From Spirochaetales bacterium (GTDB lineage Bacteria > Spirochaetota > Spirochaetia > SZUA-6 > JAFGRV01), in assembly GCA_016930085.1 (NCBI GenBank), contig JAFGHO010000107.1, positions 62,001 to 126,000 on the forward strand: 64,000 nucleotides of DNA. Direction: 5' to 3'. The notes under the pieces are model-generated. The model did no database searches. It had not been told where the DNA came from and saw only the letters and a program-made list of their open reading frames with translations. Shown here one piece after another: positions 2,876 through 64,000 of this stretch. A program made the position numbers and the translations under genes. The first letter of the stretch is position 1. Each line of letters begins with the position of its first letter.

Positions 2876-3216
2876 GGGGATTGATGTTTCGCCGGATTGG
2901 AGAACAGATAGCTTTTTTCCGTTCATTCAACCGGGCTGTAAAGTCGGGACGATGGTGCAGGATTGAGATAAAAAAGTCAAAAACATGCATAAGTTGAGGT
3001 CCTTATGCTGTACTTGGATGATCGGTGGTCCGGTCGCTGTGTGTCAACAAGGAACCAAACCGTGTTTGTCGGTAAACAACAGCGGATCGTAATCTTCATT
3101 CCGGTAGGATGGAGATCACGAGGTGAGATAAATGTATTATTGATTATGCATGATGAATTATATTAAGTATCATCCCGGGGGATGGCATATCTCTTTCGGG
3201 ATCGATATCAGGAGGA
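2876..3216 (+). promoter_or_regulatory. tuf-rpsJ leader region with hairpin
   Basis: A 341-nt non-coding stretch before the S10 operon. It contains CATCCC-GG-GGGATG at 3171-3184, about 30 nt upstream of rpsJ, and a loose TTGATT...TATTAA pair at 3140-3166 with only 15 nt spacing, too short for a confident promoter. In enterobacteria L4 represses the S10 operon through a leader structure; I cannot show a similar fold here. The length suggests an independently regulated leader. Confidence 0.4.
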
Positions 3217-3528
3217 ATGATGATAAAAGAAAGGATACGCGTACGCTTGAGAGGTTTCGATGTTGAACTGATAGACCAGAGTTCCAAAGCGATCGTTGAT
3301 ACAGTACTGAAAGCCGGATCAAAAGTATCCGGTCCAATTCCTTTACCGACTCGAATCAATAAGTTTACTGTACTCAGATCCCCTCACGTGAACAAGAAGT
3401 CGCGTGAACAGTTCGAGATGCGGACACATAAACGCTTGATCGATATCATCGAACCTACTTCTGCGGTTATGGATGCACTTATGAAGCTCGAGCTTCCTGC
3501 AGGTGTAGATGTTGAAATTAAAATGTGA
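3217..3528 (+). CDS. rpsJ: 30S ribosomal protein S10
   Basis: S10 (NusE), part of the 30S head and also of transcription antitermination complexes; NusB, its partner, is encoded at 26176. The motifs [50 protein letters not shown] and the C-terminus [11 protein letters not shown] identify it. Two ATG codons are adjacent (3217 and 3220); the AGGAGG at 3210-3215 is only one base from the first, so the second, giving 102 residues, may be the true start. First gene of the S10 string. Confidence 0.97.
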
Positions 3529-3536
3529 GGAAAAAA

Positions 3537-4196
3537 ATGGTAGGGCTAATCGGAAAGAAAATCGGCATGACTCAGGTATTCGACGAAAGCGGAAACATTA
3601 TTCCGGTTACCGTCGTCGCCGTACCGCAGAATGTCGTTATCGGTGAGAGGAATACCGAAAAAAACGGATATGATGCAGTGATACTCGGTGCATTCGAACA
3701 AAAAGAATCGAGGGTGATTAAGCCGGTGAAGGGGCAGTTCAAAGACGGCCTTACTCCTCAAAAGGTGATGATCGAAATTCGTGATTTTGAGAAAGAGTAT
3801 GAAATCGGTAAGGCGCTGACCGTTGATGTTTTTCAGGGTATTGATTTTATCGATGTCCGGGGCGTAACAAAAGGTAAAGGATACCAGGGTGTCATGAAGC
3901 GGCATGGATTCAGCGGCGGAAGAAAAACGCATGGATCGAAATTTCACCGGGCACAGGGTTCAACGGGAAGTTCCAGTTTTCCCTCCAGAGTATTCAAGGG
4001 GTTGAAAATGGCGGGAAGAATGGGCGGTGCTGCAATGAAGGTTCAGAATCTTCGCCTGGTGAAAATCGACACTGAAAAGAACACGCTTTTGATAAAAGGT
4101 GCGATTCCGGGCCCTAAAAATGCGACGGTCGTCATTCTCAAAGCGAAAAAGAAGGGTCATATAACTGTCAAAAAAAGCAGTGAAGAAAATAATTGA
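3537..4196 (+). CDS. rplC: 50S ribosomal protein L3
   Basis: Early-assembly 23S rRNA-binding protein, 219 residues. The start [15 protein letters not shown] is the family N-terminus, with GAGG 6 nt upstream inside the rpsJ stop region; an in-frame GTG four codons earlier overlaps rpsJ and is less likely. [20 protein letters not shown] and [17 protein letters not shown] form the conserved extension reaching toward the peptidyl transferase centre. The tail [16 protein letters not shown] is slightly long and charged. Confidence 0.97.
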
Positions 4197-46333: not shown

Positions 46334-47596
46334 TTACCGATTCCTCTTTTCAAGCCCGCGGTTTATCGCTTCGATTATTTTCACGGCCACCTCCGTCTTC
46401 GATGAAGGCCCCACATGAAGGACGTTCCTTTTATGATCGACGATAAACACCTCGTTCGTGTCTCCTTCGAATCCCGATCCTTTTCTCGCCACGTCGTTTG
46501 CGACAATGAGGTCGGCATCCGCCTTTTGAAGCCGGACGAATGCGTCCGCAATTATTTGTTCGTCCTCGAGCCCGGTCACGGCCCGGAAACAGACGAGAAA
46601 AACCTCAGGACTCTTTTTCCTGATTCCGTCGATGATCTTTGGCGTGGGAACAAGGTCGAGTGAGAGTGTCTTCCGTCCGGAGGTGGCGATTTTTGTATCT
46701 GATGATTTTTTCACGGTCCAGTCGCCGACAGCCGCGGCCGCGATCACGATATCGACCCCTTTCGATTCGAGCCGTCGAGAGACCTCTTCCTGCATCTGTG
46801 CGGCCGTCTCGACGCGCACCACGCGGACGCCGTACGGCAACGGCGCGGTCCCCCTACCATAGACGACCGTCACATCCGCACCGGCCAGATGAGACGCGGC
46901 TGCCAGCGCCATCCCCATTTTTCCGGAACTTCTGTTCGTGATGATTCTCACCGGATCGATATATTCGATCGTTGCCCCCGCCGTAATAAGGACACGCAAG
47001 GATTCGAGGCGTCCTGCGGAAGAAAACCGGGTAATAACATGTTGAATGATTGCATCCGTGTCCGGGATTTTTGCCTTTCCCTCTTCGACAAGAGGATCGA
47101 GGACATCGATGCCCATTTGTCTGAGACGAAGAATATTTTCCCTGAGAATGGGGTGATTGTACATGGATTCATGCATCGCCGGGACGATCACCAACGGTAT
47201 TCCTTCACCGATGGCAGTCGTCGCCACCGTCGTTACCGGTGTGTCGTCGATGCCCGATGAGATCTTGCCGATGGTATTTGCCGTCGACGGGGCAATGAGA
47301 ATGAGGTCCGCCTTTCCCGCGACATTCCCTGCGAGACGCACATGTTCCAGCGCGCCGGTCAGTTCCGTTACCGCGGGATTCCCTGTCGCCCAATGCATGA
47401 GATCGGGATGTATGATACGGCACCCCGCGGCCGTCATGACCGGATATACCTCGTAGCCGCGCCGCATGAGACCCCGCGCGATATCGGGTGATCTGACCGC
47501 GGCGACGCTTCCCGTTATGCAAAGAACGATCTTTTTGCCTTTACCGGATTCTTCGATCGAACCGGTAATATCCTTTGACGGGTGACAGTTTTTCAC
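46334..47596 (-). CDS. coaBC: archaeal-type CoaBC: phosphopantothenate-cysteine ligase / phosphopantothenoylcysteine decarboxylase
   Basis: 420 residues from a GTG overlapping the mfnA stop (GTGA), behind a G-rich ribosome site; the frame is open further up but lies inside mfnA. The CoaC flavoprotein half has IVLCITGSVAAVRSPDIARG, the His in TGALEHVRLAG and IAPSTANTIGKISSGIDDTP, then PAMHESMYNHP. The CoaB half has ITAGATIEYIDPVRIITNRS, the SSGKMG dinucleotide loop and ADLIVANDVARKGSGF. The SSGIDDTPVTTVATTAIGEG stretch and IIHPDLMHWATGNPAVTELT resemble archaeal CoaBC more than bacterial Dfp; this is my recall and needs a tree. Last gene of the four-gene CoA operon. Confidence 0.9.
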   Translation of the reverse strand: MKNCHPSKDITGSIEESGKGKKIVLCITGSVAAVRSPDIARGLMRRGYEVYPVMTAAGCRIIHPDLMHWATGNPAVTELTGALEHVRLAGNVAGKADLILIAPSTANTIGKISSGIDDTPVTTVATTAIGEGIPLVIVPAMHESMYNHPILRENILRLRQMGIDVLDPLVEEGKAKIPDTDAIIQHVITRFSSAGRLESLRVLITAGATIEYIDPVRIITNRSSGKMGMALAAASHLAGADVTVVYGRGTAPLPYGVRVVRVETAAQMQEEVSRRLESKGVDIVIAAAAVGDWTVKKSSDTKIATSGRKTLSLDLVPTPKIIDGIRKKSPEVFLVCFRAVTGLEDEQIIADAFVRLQKADADLIVANDVARKGSGFEGDTNEVFIVDHKRNVLHVGPSSKTEVAVKIIEAINRGLEKRNR

Positions 47597-48768
47597 GATA
47601 CCCCCCTCAGTTTGGCGCATATGTCGCTGAGATCGTCGATAAACTTGTCGATATGCTCGCGATAGACGTGGGGCATGAGGACAATACGGATGTGGTTCGG
47701 AAAAAGCGAGATCGCCCATCCCTTTTTTCTCAATCGTTCCGCGATCGAGCCGACCGGATGAACCTTCGAGGTAATACCGGCGATATTGATCACCGGCTTT
47801 ATCATCATTTCGACATCCTCGATGCCGGCGATTTTTTCAGCGAGGTAGACGGTCGAATCCATACACCTCCTGATGATCGTCCGGTACCCCTGACGCCCCA
47901 GGTGGTTGAGGAGCGACCAGACGGAGAGAACCGACGCCCCCGACCTCGTTCCGACGATCGTCGCCCGAGCGTTTTCTCCGCCCGACAGGTAAGGAACGGG
48001 AATGCGCACCGTCTCAGAGAGTTCTTTCGTCCTGTAGAGAATACCACCCGCCGGAATGACGGCCATGCCCATCTTGTGAGGATCGATGGTCATGGAAGAC
48101 ACCCCCTTGAGTCTGAAGTTGAACGGGGGCTGTTCGTAGCCGAGTTCTTTGAGAAACGGAAGCACATATCCCCCGAAAGCGGCGTCGACGTGAAGGTGGA
48201 TGTCCGCTTCGAGGGCGATCGCGGACAATTCATCGATCCGGTCGACGACACCCAGCCCCGTCGTCCCAGCGGCACCGACGATGGCGATGGTGTTGGGCGA
48301 AAGAGCCCTTTTTACCTTTTCGATATCGATGCGGAATTGTCCGGTCACTTTGATTTTTTTGAGTTTCAGACCGATGAGTTCGGCTGCCTTGTCAAAGGAA
48401 AAATGCGCGTCTTCGGAGAGAATGACTTCGGGCGTTCTCACCTTTTTTTTCATTCTTTTTTTTGCCGTCCACATGGCAAGGATATTGGCCTCAGTCCCCC
48501 CGGTAACGATGTGTCCTGCGGCTTTTCTCAATCCGACCAGGTTCCCGAGCAACGCTATCGCCTCTTTCTCTATTTCTTCCGTCGCGTTGACAAGGCCGGG
48601 GTCGCCGATATTTTTTTCGATGTACCGCATGAATATCTCTTCCGCAAAGGGGTGGGGCCTGGTGCACATCGAGCCGAGTATTTTCCCGGAATTGAAGGTG
48701 AGGTCCTTCATGAGACGGTTTTTCAATTCCGCCGATATAATGTCCTGATCTTTCCCTTTATCTTCCAT
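47593..48768 (-). CDS. mfnA: MfnA-type PLP-dependent decarboxylase (tyrosine/aspartate)
   Basis: 391 residues. PLP-dependent group II decarboxylase fold: FNSGKILGSMCTRPHPFAEE, HIVTGGTEANILAMWTAKKR, LHVDAAFGGYVLPF with the PLP-binding Asp, and the Schiff-base Lys (about K232) in SSMTIDPHKMGM. YLSGGENARATIVGTRSGAS is typical of archaeal MfnA, which makes tyramine for methanofuran and also decarboxylates aspartate to beta-alanine. Here the position between phosphopantothenate synthetase and CoaBC points to beta-alanine supply, replacing bacterial PanD; no methanofuran genes are present. Overlaps coaBC by four bases; 26 nt from the upstream gene. Confidence 0.9.
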   Translation of the reverse strand: MEDKGKDQDIISAELKNRLMKDLTFNSGKILGSMCTRPHPFAEEIFMRYIEKNIGDPGLVNATEEIEKEAIALLGNLVGLRKAAGHIVTGGTEANILAMWTAKKRMKKKVRTPEVILSEDAHFSFDKAAELIGLKLKKIKVTGQFRIDIEKVKRALSPNTIAIVGAAGTTGLGVVDRIDELSAIALEADIHLHVDAAFGGYVLPFLKELGYEQPPFNFRLKGVSSMTIDPHKMGMAVIPAGGILYRTKELSETVRIPVPYLSGGENARATIVGTRSGASVLSVWSLLNHLGRQGYRTIIRRCMDSTVYLAEKIAGIEDVEMMIKPVINIAGITSKVHPVGSIAERLRKKGWAISLFPNHIRIVLMPHVYREHIDKFIDDLSDICAKLRGVS

Positions 48769-48794
48769 AATTAATTACTTTATACACAATATAT

Positions 48795-49574
48795 TCATGG
48801 GATATCCGTCCCGCCTCCGGCGAGCAGAAGCAGCCTGTCGCAGATCGCCCGCAACGCTTCCCCGGTGTTTTTTTTGTTGTCGTAGCTTTCGACGATCCGC
48901 TTGAGGGCGGGACGCGGTGTTGTTTTCAATTCCTTCACCTTTTCAATAAGTGCGGGAAGGGTACGGGTGATATTATCGACAATCGTGATATGCGCCGTCC
49001 GGGAGGTACGGGACAGGGGATTGAGATCGACGGTAATCACCGTTTTACCGCAGCGGACCAGCGCTTTCGTCCTGTCGCCGTCTTCGAGCGGAACGAGAAC
49101 GACATCCGCTTTCAGTATGCCGTCCGGATCGACACGCCTTCTTTCACTTTGAAGTTCGTCGATGACCTCCGACGCCGCTTCGCCAACGCCGTAAATATGC
49201 CGGCCACCGGCATCCAGAAGCGCCTTGCGGACGGCCTCTTCACGTTCGCGCGTCCGGTAGAAAAGGTTGACTTCAAGCCGGGCGCCCGTGATCTCGGAAA
49301 GCCCGACCAGTTCACGGGGCACGAGAACCGCCGTATTGCCGTTGACCGAAATCACCGGTGCGGCGGCATTAAGAAGTGAAGCGGCGGCGGCTTCTATCGC
49401 CCGCTGTGCCTGGGGGATCGTTTTTTCACCGATGAGATAATCGAACGCCTCCCCTCTGCCGTGTGCGATAAGTCCGGCATACGCCACGACATTGTCTTCC
49501 ACACCACGGATGAGTGCCTCACGTATTTTGAGTGAGGCCGCCCTTGGATGTGATTCCGGTATGTTAATTCCCAT
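48795..49574 (-). CDS. 4-phosphopantoate--beta-alanine ligase (phosphopantothenate synthetase, archaeal type)
   Basis: 259 residues from MGINIPESHPRAASLK; an earlier in-frame start at 49607 would add 11 residues and lengthen the overlap with pantoate kinase from 11 to 44 nt. The sequence carries the signature of the archaeal COG1701/DUF137 enzyme: SHPRAASLKIREALIRGVED, GLIAHGRGEAFDYLIGEKTI, VISVNGNTAVLVPRELV, EVNLFYRTREREEAV, VVLVPLEDGDRTKALVRCGK and VDLNPLSRTSRTAHITIVDN. The enzyme joins 4-phosphopantoate to beta-alanine with ATP. It is unrelated to bacterial PanC. Finding it in a bacterial ribosomal-gene neighbourhood is unusual. Confidence 0.92.
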   Translation of the reverse strand: MGINIPESHPRAASLKIREALIRGVEDNVVAYAGLIAHGRGEAFDYLIGEKTIPQAQRAIEAAAASLLNAAAPVISVNGNTAVLVPRELVGLSEITGARLEVNLFYRTREREEAVRKALLDAGGRHIYGVGEAASEVIDELQSERRRVDPDGILKADVVLVPLEDGDRTKALVRCGKTVITVDLNPLSRTSRTAHITIVDNITRTLPALIEKVKELKTTPRPALKRIVESYDNKKNTGEALRAICDRLLLLAGGGTDIP

Positions 49575-50484
49575 CCAGTACCCTTGCTCCCTGATAATCG
49601 ATATCACAGACTATACTATTTTTACTTCCTGTACAAGTAAAAAGAAGATGCCGCACTTTCTCTGCCGCATCCTCCCCGACGATGGTGAACACACCCCGGC
49701 CGAACATCGGCATACCCGCCGTAATTCCTTCATCGTCGAGAACGCGAAGGATGTGATGAGTCGTCGCATCCGCGAGGCCCGTTTTTTCCGTAAAATGGCG
49801 GGAAAGACGCAAAAAAGCGGGGACGGTCGGGTCTTTGACAAGCTGTTTGATGAGTTTTTTGCCGTACCTGTTCACCGCGCGCCTGGTCTTTTTTTGCCGG
49901 AGCAGTTCCTTTGTTTCGAGACCGCCGAGAATGAGGGCGACGGCCTTGTACCGGCGGTCGGGCGGAATCTGAAGCATCCTCCCGGTTCCCGGCGCGCCCG
50001 GCGCGATACGTATCTCGATACCCCCGAATGTTTCTCCGATAACGGTCCCGAGGCCCGTTTTCATTTCAACCTCGGCCCGATGGGCGAGTCCGGCCGCCTC
50101 GATACGTGAAAGTCCGGTCCCAAAAGCCTCATCGAGCGATAAGGCGAGACTCAGGGCCCCGGCCCCGCTCGTCCCGCATCCCGCTCCGATTGGAAGGTCG
50201 ATTGTGTGATCCACCTTGATGCGGCAGGAATCGTCCGTTCCGGTAAGATCGAAAAAAAGATCGATAACCCGTTCGGATACGGCCGCGTTTCCGGCCGGTA
50301 TTCCATTGATGATGATATCGATTGTCCTTTCGGGAGCCGTTTCGACGGTAAGCATGGTGGTGACGCCTTTTTCAAGAGAAAATCCGGCACCCAGCGAACC
50401 GGAGTGAAGCGGTGAGCGTCCGGTATCGTGAATATAAAAAAATCCCGTTATATGGCCGGGGGAAAAGGCCGTTACCGTTTTCAT
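49564..50484 (-). CDS. pantoate kinase (archaeal type, GHMP superfamily)
   Basis: 306 residues from MKTVTAFSPGHITGFFYIHD, with AGAGG four nt upstream; the frame is open for 87 codons further but without a good site. GHMP kinase features: PGHITGFF near the start, the phosphate loop LPIGAGCGTSGAGALSLALS and GLGTVIGETFGGIEIRIAPG. AFSPGHITGFF with HSGSLGAGFSLEKGV matches pantoate kinase more than mevalonate or homoserine kinases. It phosphorylates pantoate at the 4 position, the first committed step of the archaeal CoA route. First gene of the operon, divergent from the radical SAM gene. Confidence 0.9.
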   Translation of the reverse strand: MKTVTAFSPGHITGFFYIHDTGRSPLHSGSLGAGFSLEKGVTTMLTVETAPERTIDIIINGIPAGNAAVSERVIDLFFDLTGTDDSCRIKVDHTIDLPIGAGCGTSGAGALSLALSLDEAFGTGLSRIEAAGLAHRAEVEMKTGLGTVIGETFGGIEIRIAPGAPGTGRMLQIPPDRRYKAVALILGGLETKELLRQKKTRRAVNRYGKKLIKQLVKDPTVPAFLRLSRHFTEKTGLADATTHHILRVLDDEGITAGMPMFGRGVFTIVGEDAAEKVRHLLFTCTGSKNSIVCDIDYQGARVLDGN

Positions 50485-50718
50485 ATAGCCTCTGTTCTTT
50501 CTTTCTATAATCGATTGTACAGCGTAGCTTATTTTTCGCAATGTTACAATATCCGTGATGTCACCGATGCAACAGGTTCGAAATGCGGACACAGGTGTTT
50601 CTAAAATATTGATATGAGTATGATGTAATGAAAAAGGATCGCCCTCTTGAGGATTTGCCGTTTTTAGTACACGTTGATAAAAGCAAAGCGATAGGATACA
50701 CTGTCCGCCTGAGTAATA
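50485..50718. other. divergent spacer between pantoate kinase and radical SAM genes
   Basis: 234 nt. On the plus strand TTGATA (50674-50679) and TACACT (50697-50702) are 17 nt apart, 16 nt before the radical SAM ATG. No equally good pair was found for the CoA operon on the minus strand. No operator-like palindrome seen. Confidence 0.4.
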
Positions 50719-52065
50719 ATGATGAAAACCGCGAATATGCCGCACGCATTGCTTATATTTCCCCCCGTATATGATTTCGCCCTTTTTGATCTTTTCATAA
50801 AACCGTTTCCCCTTCTTACGATAGGGAAAAGCCTCGAACGGGCAGGCTACCGCGTATCGCTTTTGAACTGCCTTGACTACACCGATGAAACCTCATGCCG
50901 TTTTCTCTCTGCTCCCCGCCGTCATGAAAACGGCACGGGAAAATTCTTCAAGCAGCATATCGAAAAGCCCGTGGCGCTTAAAAACATCAAGCGGTATTAT
51001 TCCCGCTATGGAATCATTACGGAAGAAATCGAACGGCGTGTCTCAGGCATCCGGCCCGATATCGTGTTGGTGACGACGGGGATGACGTACTGGTATCCGG
51101 GTGTCCGGGAAGCGGTCCGGATCGTAAGAAAATACCATCCGCGGGTTAAGGTTATTGCCGGCGGTACCTACGCGACATTATGCTCTTCTCATTGCATCGA
51201 GGTAACCGGCGCGGACGAGGTCATAAGCGGTCCGGCCTCGCCCCGTCTCGGTGAAGTGTGCGGCTCACTCGGTCTTCCCGTTCCCGATGCCCCGCACGAC
51301 AGTGACCTGCTCATCCTCTCGGATATTTATTCGGATGCGGCCGTCTTGAAAATTCACAGCGGGTGTCCTTTCAGGTGCAGGTATTGCGCGTCCTCACTGC
51401 TATCGGGAGACTTTCATAACGGCGATCCCGCTTCCGCCTTTGCCCTGCTGCGGGAAACTCACGGCAGGCTCGGAACTCGTGTCTTTGCCTTTTATGACGA
51501 TGCCCTTCTCGCAGACAGGGAACGGGGGATCATTCCATTTCTTCACATGGTATGTGATTCGGGTCTCAATGTGAATTTTTACCTCCCCAACGGCATTCAC
51601 CTCCGGTATCTCGATACGGAGCTGGCGGTATTAATGAAAAAGGCCGGATTCCGTGAAATAAGGATCGGGATAGAGAGTATGCGTCCGGACTTTCACCGCA
51701 GCTATGACAACAAGGTGTCCGTCGGTGCGTTGGGTGACGCCGTCGATCTGCTTAAAAAGGCCGGTTTCGGGGGGCATGAGATCGGGTGCTATATTCTCGC
51801 CGGACTTCCGGGACAATACAGTGAAGACGTCGAGGAATCCGTAAGGACGCTCTCCCGTTACGGGGTGAGAATATACATCGCGGAGTTCTCGCCGGTGCCG
51901 GGAACGCCGATATGGAAGGAATGCGTTCGAACATCGGTGTATCCCCTCGAGGAAGAACCCCTCTTTCATAACAACAGCATTTTCCCCTTTGCATGGAAAC
52001 ATTTCAGGAGAACGGACCTGGAATCGATCAAGCGGTTGGCACGTTCGCTTTCCGTCAAAGAATAG
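50719..52065 (+). CDS. B12-binding-domain radical SAM protein
   Basis: 448 residues. The N-terminal 170 residues resemble the cobalamin-binding fold (ALLIFPPVYDFALFDLFIKP, PLLTIGKSLERAGYRVSLLN, RPDIVLVTTGMTYWYPGVRE, VIAGGTYATLCSSHCIEVTG). The radical SAM core starts near residue 215 with IHSGCPFRCRYCASSLLSGD, the CxxxCxxC iron-sulfur motif. FYDDALLADRERGIIPF, IRIGIESMRPDFHR and GCYILAGLPGQYSEDVEESV follow in the usual order. The DXHXXG cobalamin ligand motif is not evident, so B12 binding is uncertain. Substrate unknown. Overlaps the 3' end of gpsA on the other strand by 11 nt. Confidence 0.85.
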   Translation: MMKTANMPHALLIFPPVYDFALFDLFIKPFPLLTIGKSLERAGYRVSLLNCLDYTDETSCRFLSAPRRHENGTGKFFKQHIEKPVALKNIKRYYSRYGIITEEIERRVSGIRPDIVLVTTGMTYWYPGVREAVRIVRKYHPRVKVIAGGTYATLCSSHCIEVTGADEVISGPASPRLGEVCGSLGLPVPDAPHDSDLLILSDIYSDAAVLKIHSGCPFRCRYCASSLLSGDFHNGDPASAFALLRETHGRLGTRVFAFYDDALLADRERGIIPFLHMVCDSGLNVNFYLPNGIHLRYLDTELAVLMKKAGFREIRIGIESMRPDFHRSYDNKVSVGALGDAVDLLKKAGFGGHEIGCYILAGLPGQYSEDVEESVRTLSRYGVRIYIAEFSPVPGTPIWKECVRTSVYPLEEEPLFHNNSIFPFAWKHFRRTDLESIKRLARSLSVKE

Positions 52066-57256: not shown

Positions 57257-59062
57257 TTATTGTGCGCTGTTGATCTCCCGTGTGTTATCGGGCATGTCGA
57301 TAAGCGATGACGATTGGCCGCTTGTGGGAAAATGGCGCGCATCCGTTACGCGGGAAAAACGGCCCGCCGGTCGGATTCTGCGAATCAGTTCGAAGTTGCA
57401 GATGATGACGGCGGGTTTTTTATCGATGTCGTGAAGAAGGTTGCCCCTGCTGTCGAGTGAGAGAAGCAGGTGGGACCCCTTCATGTTCAGATCCTCGAAT
57501 CCGGCCTTGAATAATTTCTTTTTTTGCCGCTGTAAAAGCTGTTTGTATTCTTTTTTTGAAATAAGTCCGATTTTACAGGCGTAAATCGCATTGACGCTGC
57601 TGTAATAGTTGCCGTCATACAGGGCAAGCATATCGTCGGGTCCGTTCCAGTAGCCCCAGATCAGCAGATAGTCGCGATCTTCTCTCAGGATCGGCGTGTC
57701 GTCGGGATTGCGAAGATCGCTGTGGGCTATATATCGCCTCTTGTCGCTGAGTGACGAATCGATATCGATGGCGTTGCCGGTCATATAAATGGCTCGCGGA
57801 TATATCGTCTGAATGCCTTTTTTATTCAATTCCAGCGCGATGCTTACCTCTTCGAAGGGGCTGTTATAGCCATGCTCGATAATACGGCGGGCGTGTCCGC
57901 CGAGCGGATCGACATGGGGGAGGAGCCCGACCCGCGATACCTTCCAGACAAGGTGGATATTGTCTTTTGTTACGGTATGGTATATTTCACTTGTGGCGGA
58001 AAGCTTTTTCCTGGGTGTCTTTTCCCATCGTTCGGGAAGAAAATAATCGAACAACTCCGGGTCCCTTCCCACTATCCAGAGGGCCCCGTGGGTAAACTCC
58101 GCGTGCCCGTAAATATAGTCGACACCCATAATCGTCCGTGATTTGAGGTACGGTGGAATGCTTTTAAACCCGCTGTACGAGAAGCGGGTACTTTGTCGTC
58201 TCAGATAATTGGTTCTTTTCGCGTTTTTGACGATTCTATCCCGTTCGGTAGTCCGCTCAAGAAGTTCGAAATCGACAAGCGCATACGGGATGCTGCCGTC
58301 TTTGGTACGTTTAAGGGCGCGGTCTTTTCCGGGTCTGATGATGATGTGATGGGGCTTTCTGTCCCTGACATGAAATCCCTTGTTTCTGAGTTCTTTATCG
58401 ACATGCAGCGTGAACGCTTTCATCGTTTCCCTGTCGACGATCCCGAGGGTGTGGGCTTTTGCGAGGTCGATTCCCTTGACCCATTCATAGATCATAACGT
58501 ATGAACGGTACATATTGAGTTCTATTTCTTCATGGGCGGCGATTTTGTTCCGCATTTTGTACTCACGCCTGCCGGATTCCCAAAGTTCGACGTGTTCGTT
58601 CGGGACATAGACGGCAAGCGGTTTTTGTGTAATGATTCTGCCCGGGGATTCATACTTGGTGTTTCTCAATTCCATGACCAGTGAAAACTCCTCGAAGGGG
58701 CTGTTGAACTCTGCACCTGCAAACTCTTCAAAGTCTTCCGCGCCCGGTATGTCCTGTCCCATTCTATTCCATTTGATTACCACGTCTTTACATACTCCAT
58801 TCACCTCTTTTGTTCTTACACGGTAGGTGCAGCTTGTACCCGATAATCGATCGGAGTGCGCCTGAAACCAGTCCCTGTCGGTCAGAAATTGACGAGGTTC
58901 CAGTTGATGGTAAAATGGTATGCCGTATTTCGTTACATAGAGGTCTTCATTCTCATTGAGACCGATATGGAGGTAATGGATCCCCAGAATTTGTGTGACC
59001 TCCGAGTTTTTAATCGAAAGCGACAGTTTCCCGAATTTCATCACATCGGAAATGTTTTCCAT
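57257..59062 (-). CDS. tandem protein-kinase-like protein (active-like plus degenerate copy)
   Basis: 601 residues, no signal peptide or membrane segment. The first half resembles a protein-kinase-like fold: Lys in DVVIKWNRM (K97), a helix NSPFEEFSLVMELRN (120-134), a hinge-like YVMIYEWVKGIDLAKAH, a catalytic-loop-like HVRDRKPHHIII (231-242) and a metal-site-like ALVDFELLER (261-270). The second half repeats the order: LVWK374, NSPFEEVSIALELNKKG (400-416), DYLLIWGYWNGPDD, GFEDLNMKGSHLLL (521-534) and IICNFELIRR. In this copy D234 and D264 are both replaced by Asn (N526, N556), as in pseudokinases. No close family recognised. Kinase activity, and its substrate, are inference. Confidence 0.6.
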   Translation of the reverse strand: MENISDVMKFGKLSLSIKNSEVTQILGIHYLHIGLNENEDLYVTKYGIPFYHQLEPRQFLTDRDWFQAHSDRLSGTSCTYRVRTKEVNGVCKDVVIKWNRMGQDIPGAEDFEEFAGAEFNSPFEEFSLVMELRNTKYESPGRIITQKPLAVYVPNEHVELWESGRREYKMRNKIAAHEEIELNMYRSYVMIYEWVKGIDLAKAHTLGIVDRETMKAFTLHVDKELRNKGFHVRDRKPHHIIIRPGKDRALKRTKDGSIPYALVDFELLERTTERDRIVKNAKRTNYLRRQSTRFSYSGFKSIPPYLKSRTIMGVDYIYGHAEFTHGALWIVGRDPELFDYFLPERWEKTPRKKLSATSEIYHTVTKDNIHLVWKVSRVGLLPHVDPLGGHARRIIEHGYNSPFEEVSIALELNKKGIQTIYPRAIYMTGNAIDIDSSLSDKRRYIAHSDLRNPDDTPILREDRDYLLIWGYWNGPDDMLALYDGNYYSSVNAIYACKIGLISKKEYKQLLQRQKKKLFKAGFEDLNMKGSHLLLSLDSRGNLLHDIDKKPAVIICNFELIRRIRPAGRFSRVTDARHFPTSGQSSSLIDMPDNTREINSAQ

Positions 59063-62294: not shown

Positions 62295-63344
62295 TCATTC
62301 CATAAGCACGGCGGTCATGAATGACCGGTACGCCTCCGCCATCTCCGCATTCAGGGGGATATGATCCGGATCGAATCGAAATGAAGGACAGGCAATCGCG
62401 TAGGCGAGGGATTCTCTGTTTTCCTCCCAGGAGGTTTCCCATCGCGAAGCGGGGAAAAAGAGGAGGGGACCGGATGTTTCCCGGTGCGTGAAGGGAAGAA
62501 GGGGATTACTCTCTTCAGCGATCGGGACACATCCCAATGCCCCGGTTTGAAAGAAGGCGTAGCGGTAAACGCCGTTGTTTTCATTGACGCTATTTCGTAT
62601 ATGCAAAGCGGGAATCTCAGGGCCGCCTCCGGGTTCGGGGAGGTCGATGAACCACTCGCATTGCAGGCCGGAAGCCTTGCCTTCTTTTTTTTCGATTATC
62701 CCGGTGTCGGAAAGAAGCCATGTTTCCTCCCGGACCGAACATGTGCCGTTTTCGTCAAGCCCGAGACGGACGAGACCCACGATACCGTTCGTAAGCATAT
62801 CCGGATTGAGACCGATCCAGTTTCCCGTCAGGTCCTCATCCAGATATGCGTTCATGATGTGCGGATGTTTTTCAAGGGGAAATCGCCGGTCCGCGGCGTA
62901 ATCGGATATACATTTTATTGAAAAAGCGATACGTTTCGACGCGAGAACCGCCTCCGTTCCGGAGTCGATGACGGAGAAAAAGCCGTGATACGGTTCGTCC
63001 GGGTTCCCCTTTTTTTCGAGTAAAAGAATGGGATAAAAAAACCATGCCGCCGTTTTCCAATGTGCGGGGTCAAAAGGAACAGCGTGTTCCTCCTGTTGTA
63101 CCGTCGAACCGGAAGGCCATGTATCCTGATCTATTCTGAACGTAAAAATGAGTGAAGCCCCCGGAGAACCGAAAACATAGACATCGGTGACGGTAAACAT
63201 CACCCCCGCCTCTCCGTTCCGGATGTCTTTTTTCATAATGATATTCCCGATTGAACAAAGGGGGGGATCGGCAAAGAGGGGAGAATGACAGGCGGGAAGA
63301 GAGAACCATATAACGATCACGATCGACAGATTTTTGATATTCAT
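62295..63344 (-). CDS. putative lipoprotein of unknown function
   Basis: 349 residues from MNIKNLSIVIVIWFSLPACH; LPAC is a possible lipobox. The same frame is open further up and overlaps the phosphatase gene. The mature part has GEAGVMFTVTDVYVFGSP, LIFTFRIDQDTWPSG and TGNWIGLNPDMLTNGIVGLV, which suggests beta-sandwich modules, and several Trp residues. No family recognised. Ribosome site weak. 16 nt after the phosphatase stop, so probably cotranscribed with it. Confidence 0.6.
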   Translation of the reverse strand: MNIKNLSIVIVIWFSLPACHSPLFADPPLCSIGNIIMKKDIRNGEAGVMFTVTDVYVFGSPGASLIFTFRIDQDTWPSGSTVQQEEHAVPFDPAHWKTAAWFFYPILLLEKKGNPDEPYHGFFSVIDSGTEAVLASKRIAFSIKCISDYAADRRFPLEKHPHIMNAYLDEDLTGNWIGLNPDMLTNGIVGLVRLGLDENGTCSVREETWLLSDTGIIEKKEGKASGLQCEWFIDLPEPGGGPEIPALHIRNSVNENNGVYRYAFFQTGALGCVPIAEESNPLLPFTHRETSGPLLFFPASRWETSWEENRESLAYAIACPSFRFDPDHIPLNAEMAEAYRSFMTAVLME

Positions 63345-63360
63345 TTGTTTTCTGTCTGCC

Positions 63361-64000
63361 TCATTCCCTTTCGATAATAAAAAGTGACGCATCGTCCTTG
63401 TATTCCTGCTTCATGTGCCACCCGCGTTCTTCATTTTCAAGATTACGGATGAGATCCGGAATCTTGATCTTTGTATTGTTTTCGATAAAGGCAACAAGAC
63501 GGTTAAAGCATATCTGATTTATGTCTGCAAACGTGGAATCGATAAGCCCGTCGGAATAGAGAAAAAGCCTGCTTTGGGGTTCAAACGTAAACTCGTATTC
63601 CGACAGCACCGGTTCCGCGGTCATTCCGATCGCGCTCCCGTTTGCCTGGATGATTTTAATCTTACCCTCATGACCCTGATAGATTGGGGAAGGATGTCCG
63701 GCGTTAACGAGACGGGTCGATCCTGTTTTTATATCGGTTATCGCGTATACCAGCGTGAAATATGGATTATCCTTTTCCGCGATAAAGAAGCGGTTGTTCA
63801 ACTCCCGGGCCACTTCGCCGGGAGAACGTATCATGGATTGAGAGCCGTCCTCCGGCTGCCGGACCAGTATGCCCCCCTTGTTCGGGGCCGGAGAAAGGAA
63901 TTGATGCAGATTCATGGAAAAAAGCGCCGTCGTAAAACCATACCCTGAAACATCGAGCATGAAGAAACCGATGTGGTTCTCGTCGAGTGAAAAAAAGTTG
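63361..64000 (-). CDS. SpoIIE-type PP2C-like serine phosphatase, C-terminal part (partial)
   Basis: The frame runs off the right edge: reading from base 64000 gives NFFSLDENHIGFFMLDVSGY, so the ATG at 63960 is internal. DVSGYG holds a metal-binding Asp, NAGHPSPIYQG and FLYSDGLIDSTFA further conserved PP2C/SpoIIE motifs, and KDDASLFIIER the final metal-binding Asp. Such phosphatases (RsbU-like) dephosphorylate anti-sigma antagonists and usually carry an N-terminal sensor, outside the window. A GGDGFTTALFSMNLHQ-like stretch (GFTTALFSMNLHQFLSP) is normal for the family. Confidence 0.88.
   Translation of the reverse strand, partial: NFFSLDENHIGFFMLDVSGYGFTTALFSMNLHQFLSPAPNKGGILVRQPEDGSQSMIRSPGEVARELNNRFFIAEKDNPYFTLVYAITDIKTGSTRLVNAGHPSPIYQGHEGKIKIIQANGSAIGMTAEPVLSEYEFTFEPQSRLFLYSDGLIDSTFADINQICFNRLVAFIENNTKIKIPDLIRNLENEERGWHMKQEYKDDASLFIIERE

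Follow-up and report, generated by a model that had tools for sequence, protein, structure and literature searches.

Eukaryotes provide the best-known cases of a catalytic kinase that is controlled by a pseudokinase on its own polypeptide. Among bacteria, seven pseudokinase families have been described (ActPs1-3, DLHK, GLW, CP1 and DYD), and the word 'tandem' is absent from the bacterial pseudokinase review that covers them (PMC12599244). Minimal kinases are also on record: OspG and NleH lack subdomains VIII–XI and keep their catalytic residues, and OspG is active only with a bound partner (PMC3585378). KINtaro counts 72 PKL families (PMC10870513), and of the ten key PKL residues, all but one are dispensable in some family (PMC1821047). 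We consider it fairly probable that the gene analysed here, from a Spirochaetales bacterium, represents an unnamed kinase-fold family in which a minimal, probably active ATP-dependent kinase is fused to a pseudokinase regulator.

The window, the whole stretch of 64,000 nucleotides that was analysed, carries this gene at 57257 to 59062 as an open reading frame of 601 residues; the sequence-only reading had given its position and length correctly, and the strand, which it did not give, is minus. The frame is a real gene, since full-length homologues with 36–58% identity occur in other genomes. Its exact start codon is uncertain because the ATG at 59062 is not preceded by an obvious Shine-Dalgarno site. 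It is present in single copy in its own genome (5.36 Mb, 135 contigs), with a divergent serine O-acetyltransferase gene upstream and an NAD-dependent epimerase-like gene on the same strand 160 bases downstream. Scans of the protein against Pfam, NCBIfam, PADLOC and PHROGs gave empty results or matches at noise level, and PF00069 reached its Pfam gathering cut-off neither in the window protein nor in 13 relatives. By these profile searches, the tandem protein belongs to a family that is recognized by none of the four collections, and for them the earlier remark that it fits no family holds. The features to which the following paragraphs refer are these.

57257 to 59062, minus strand: coding sequence of the putative tandem kinase-pseudokinase, 601 residues (from the ORF list; homologues align from about residue 18–20)
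58163 to 59005, minus strand: domain 1, kinase-like, residues 20–300 (alignment of 33 sequences; hhalign to Hanks kinases, E 1.7e-6)
58832 to 58849, minus strand: glycine-loop-like RLSGTS, residues 72–77 (G75 in 30/33)
58772 to 58774, minus strand: K97, candidate beta-3 lysine (K in 32/33, R in 1/33; K in 13/13 held-out sequences)
58688 to 58705, minus strand: NSPFEE of domain 1, residues 120–125, at the start of the putative helix C (helix 122–137 in the model)
58466 to 58492, minus strand: putative hinge IYEWVKGID, residues 191–199 (aligned to the kinase hinge)
58340 to 58369, minus strand: putative catalytic loop V-R-D234-R-K236-P-H-H239-I-I (in register with HRDIKPDN)
58259 to 58273, minus strand: DFG-like D264-F-E-L-L (D264, E266, L267 and L268 in 33/33)
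57347 to 58147, minus strand: domain 2, predicted pseudokinase, residues 306–572 (AlphaFold2 model, kinase-fold PDB matches, homology to domain 1)
57941 to 57943, minus strand: K374, counterpart of K97 (K in 21/25, R in 4/25)
57848 to 57865, minus strand: NSPFEE of domain 2, residues 400–405 (P402, F403 and E405 invariant in 25)
57464 to 57493, minus strand: degenerate catalytic loop D524-L-N526-M-K-G-S-H531 (at position 526, N 17, S 3, H 2, L 2 and Y 1; n = 25)
57383 to 57397, minus strand: degenerate DFG-like N556-F-E-L-I (N 21, D 2, S 1 and E 1; n = 25)

The two halves of the protein are homologous over their whole length, far beyond chance. Alignment by hhalign of residues 18–305 with residues 306–575 gave a probability of 99.7% and an E value of 3e-27 over 233 columns, and alignment of half 1 (33 sequences) with half 2 (25 sequences) gave an E value of 2.7e-30, in a register that pairs D234 with N526, K236 with K528, D264 with N556 and K97 with K374. 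In 11 tandem proteins that were left out of profile building, the second half was matched by the domain 1 profile with E values of 1e-11 to 1e-17, and the first half by the domain 2 profile with values of 1e-12 to 1e-19. The secondary structures predicted for the halves agree element by element. All of the motifs named in the sequence-only reading are present, and both its claim that the halves share order and motifs and the match between halves that it called for are borne out by these alignments and by the reciprocal matches in the held-out proteins.

In a tree of 58 domains, every domain 2 copy falls into one clade (support 100/100), opposite domain 1 and the stand-alone forms, so that a single old duplication suffices to account for the architecture. 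Being rooted only at its midpoint, the tree does not distinguish ancestral stand-alone forms from forms that have lost domain 2. Between the closest pair of genomes, domain 1 has a dN of 0.056 and a dS of 0.342 (dN/dS about 0.16) and domain 2 a dN of 0.091 and a dS of 0.419 (dN/dS about 0.22), ratios that indicate purifying selection on both. Two tandem relatives, L144 (protein residues 582–652) and L070 (609–681), carry a third, truncated repeat, in which part of domain 2, its helix E and catalytic-loop region, is partially copied once more.

The residues kept in domain 1 are those on which kinase chemistry would depend. D234 and K236 are present in all 33 aligned sequences and in 13 of 13 held out, as is E125, the presumed helix-C Glu; D264 is likewise kept in 13 of 13 held-out sequences, and R100 is present in 33 of 33. 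K97, D234, K236 and D264, the four positions singled out in the sequence-only reading, are kept in nearly all of 46 homologues. H239 occurs in 32 of 33 sequences, with Asn in the remaining one, and in all 13 held out; position 232, which corresponds to the His of the HRD motif, is Val in 32 of 33. In stand-alone relatives the glycine-loop-like segment reads GTG-VYR. When domain 1 is compared with the key PKL residues, G52, K72, E91, D166 and D184 have counterparts in G75, K97, E125, D234 and D264, which are kept in 12–13 of 13 held-out sequences, and P148 (32 of 33) is a candidate counterpart of P104, matched by eye; H164 of HxD and N171 are replaced by Val at 232 and His at 239, and D220 of helix F has no counterpart because no equivalent helix is present. 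The family is kinase-like and yet falls outside PF00069. A relative at L029 (domain 1, 2907–3749) has the canonical catalytic loop D-G-K-A-D-N in place of D-x-K-P-x-H, which suggests that His239 fills the position of the metal-binding Asn.

Domain 2 has taken the opposite course at the two acidic positions. Position 526 is never Asp in the 25 aligned sequences and is Asp in one of the 11 held out, in which position 556 is Asn; over the 25 and 11 sequences together, Asp is missing from 526 in 35 of 36 and from 556 in 34 of 36. Loss of the HRD Asp and/or the DFG Asp from a kinase-fold domain defines a pseudokinase, and domain 2 shows this loss. The Asn residues reported earlier at both positions are indeed found in the window protein (N526 and N556) and are typical of the family, but they are not universal. 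Across the family, domain 1 has the look of a catalytic domain and domain 2 that of a dead one, a pattern of conservation that in the main supports the earlier suggestion of a catalytic domain with a built-in pseudokinase. In the planctomycetote relatives L063 and L064, domain 2 keeps Asp at the DFG position (CDFKLI and CDFAFI) and its catalytic loop is shattered, which suggests that the decay of domain 2 took a different course in different lineages.

Profile comparisons place domain 1 near the Hanks-type protein kinases. Against 18 bacterial Hanks kinases it scored 50.5 in hhalign (E 1.7e-6), compared with a mean of 14.8 and a maximum of 23.4 for 60 column shuffles and 14.5 for the reversed profile. 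The alignment covers the hinge, helix E and the catalytic loop, and pairs GFHVRDRKPHHIII with GIVHRDIKPDNILI. Domain 2 gave a weaker score than domain 1 (26.7, shuffle maximum 23.5) in the correct register, with NMKGSH opposite DIKPDN and CNFEL opposite DFGI. When 397 genomes were scanned with the domain 1 profile, the only matches outside the family were seven ORFs, all of them Pkinase (PF00069, 1e-34 to 1e-45). In the PDB, the whole-protein profile matched PAK5 and PAK4 from hinge to catalytic loop, with E values of 0.0014 to 0.1; these matches are marginal, since they are lost with a profile of domain 1 only, and sequence searches of the PDB with the single sequence, with domain 1 alone (nothing at E < 1) and with domain 2 alone gave no match. 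APH-type kinases (PF01636) were considered as nearest kin and found no support, their hhalign score with domain 1 (25.7) lying below the shuffle maximum of 30.3. The LPS-kinase model PF06293 gave weak matches in relatives (best E 7.8e-8), several of them in ORFs that PF00069 also matches.

Structure prediction points to the same fold. AlphaFold2 modelled the full protein with a pLDDT of 80.8 and domain 2 alone with a pLDDT of 90.0 and a pTM of 0.89, and all of the top 50 PDB matches of the full-length and half-2 models are kinase folds, an outcome in favour of the sequence-only reading, which had proposed this fold comparison as a check. They include ULK, WbdD, haspin, RIO, the UbiB-like Rv3197 and the TYK2 and BIR2 pseudokinases; matches in a library of viral structures are nearly all Ser/Thr kinases. 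The predicted models thus have the kinase fold that defines PKL proteins, with low TM-scores to solved kinases (0.2–0.4 for domain 2 and 0.14–0.36 for the whole protein), which are expected if the lower lobe is missing and are no proof of a standard kinase.

The lower lobe indeed appears to be missing. In the model, one helix (272–291) is all that comes after DFE in domain 1, and domain 2 breaks off directly behind NFEL; in the stand-alone proteins L060 and L061, the chain stops no more than about ten residues beyond DFE. Because the chain stops at these points, kinase subdomains VIII–XI are absent: neither the sequence nor the model of either half contains an activation segment with APE or helices F–I, and no substrate-binding lobe was recognized in the tandem protein. 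This stop after the DFG-like motif, the conserved His in place of the catalytic-loop Asn and the existence of stand-alone half-1 proteins go beyond what the sequence-only reading had noticed.

The family is sparsely and patchily distributed over at least three phyla. Within the same order, eight of 25 other genomes have full-length relatives, as does one genome of the class that lies further away; among 393 sampled genomes of the phylum, eight had a match, including the window's own genome and one 63-codon fragment. Members also lie on GTDB contigs labelled Myxococcota and Planctomycetota, and wider scans found the family in 6/297 genomes of Myxococcota and 10/294 of Planctomycetota, an eleventh match in the planctomycetote scan, G612, having the motifs of a Hanks kinase; within one class around the planctomycetote genome G623 the family is present in 16 of 397 genomes. 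Some planctomycetote genomes encode a stand-alone domain 1 of about 300 residues. Phage, plasmid and viral collections held no relative and so, as far as those collections go, this is not a mobile-element gene. At 33 loci, no widely conserved neighbour was found besides the family itself; the most widely shared neighbour cluster, which looks like two-component sensors and regulators, occurs at only five of the 33, and the neighbourhood therefore gives no clue to function.

Elsewhere in the window, three adjacent minus-strand genes at 47593 to 50745 resemble, in this bacterial genome, the archaeal-type route to coenzyme A: an MfnA-type decarboxylase (471 bits, cut-off 299), a 4-phosphopantoate-beta-alanine ligase (348 bits, cut-off 227) and a GHMP kinase whose nearest match is pantoate kinase (179 bits, short of the cut-off of 500). 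An ORF of 365 residues at 62295 to 63392, minus strand, has no Pfam match and is flanked by a SpoIIE-type phosphatase ORF and by an ORF whose only matches, lipocalin-like, are weak and do not reach the cut-off.

Since domain 1 lacks the usual peptide-binding lobe, it could conceivably act on a small molecule or a glycan, or carry out another nucleotidyl transfer. We regard as unlikely, though deserving of serious attention, a reading in which domain 1 has a kinase fold without being a protein kinase, and is instead a small-molecule or glycan kinase or another nucleotide transferase, e.g. an AMPylase, with domain 2 aiding substrate binding. The helices with which protein kinases bind their peptide substrates are missing, WbdD and the UbiB-like Rv3197 are among the structure matches, PKL proteins with other activities are known (PMC10870513), and DFE recalls the Glu found at the same position in choline kinases (PMC1821047). 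However, K236, two residues past the catalytic Asp, is invariant, the APH-type score lies within its shuffles while the Hanks score rises above them, and no metabolic gene is consistently adjacent. Lys at this distance from the catalytic Asp is a typical feature of Hanks protein kinases.

D234, K236, D264, K97 and E125 are nearly invariant in at least three phyla. Without chemistry this would be difficult to account for, and it makes improbable the idea that both domains are non-catalytic scaffolds, with ATP bound by domain 1 only as a structural or switch ligand. The His that almost every member has instead of the catalytic-loop Asn, the loss of the HRD His and the missing C-lobe would suit such a scaffold; the canonical Asn in the D-G-K-A-D-N loop of L029 would not. 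A different fold that came to resemble kinases by convergence, as the low TM-scores and the lack of a Pfam match in any member scanned might suggest, is very improbable and largely refuted, because independent profile, genome-scan and structure evidence all point to kinases with the motifs in register.

The reading that we prefer, an active minimal kinase joined to a pseudokinase, can be stated as a sequence of steps. Domain 1, with a core that would comprise glycine loop, beta-3 Lys, helix-C Glu, hinge, D-x-K-P-x-H catalytic loop and DFE metal-binding motif, most likely binds Mg-ATP and transfers phosphate, with H239 in place of the catalytic-loop Asn, a step suggested by residue conservation; the acceptor is probably a protein. 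Domain 2 would have arisen by one ancient duplication followed by loss of the catalytic and metal-binding Asp residues, and would have been kept under purifying selection as a regulator of domain 1 or a docking platform for it on which substrates would dock, a role suggested by the fusion, by the selection on domain 2 and by analogy with other kinase-pseudokinase pairs. Since stand-alone domain 1 proteins exist, domain 2 is not indispensable everywhere. We put forward more tentatively, as a possibility that we rate below this reading, that a bacterial lineage arrived independently at a JAK-like kinase of two domains, built on a minimal core that stops at the DFG motif, in which the pseudokinase supplies the missing regulatory or substrate-binding surface, and that its D-x-K-P-x-H signature marks a new PKL family.

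Our studies suggest that a kinase core can stop at the DFG motif and still be conserved in at least three phyla and, if domain 1 is active, that such a stripped-down kinase carries a built-in regulator. An ancient duplication, catalytic and dead copies and natural stand-alone forms together offer a direct test of what a pseudokinase adds.

With the Hanks-type kinases (PF00069), domain 1 appears to share the glycine loop, beta-3 Lys, helix-C Glu, hinge, D-x-K-P loop and DFG-position Asp; it differs from them in having His for Asn171, Val for the HRD His and DFE for DFG, and the tandem family lacks their activation segment, APE motif and helices F–I. In comprising subdomains I–VII only, the family resembles OspG and NleH, a likeness of subdomain content, whereas no tandem pseudokinase copy is described for those kinases (PMC3585378). 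Domain 2 and the ActPs1-3, DLHK, GLW, CP1 and DYD families are all bacterial kinase-fold domains that have lost catalytic residues, but those families were classified from recognizable bacterial Ser/Thr kinases while the tandem family escapes the Pfam Pkinase model, a separation made by description. The family appears to be a new one within the kinase superfamily, with an architecture that is both unusual and conserved; it is apparently unrecorded and set apart from the published pseudokinase families by description. Like JAK/TYK2, with its JH2-JH1 arrangement, and plant WTK1 (PMC6170490), it joins one active-looking and one degenerate kinase domain in a single chain; unlike both, it is bacterial, its halves are minimal cores and its duplication took place within its own family, and, in contrast to JAK/TYK2, its active-looking domain is the N-terminal one.
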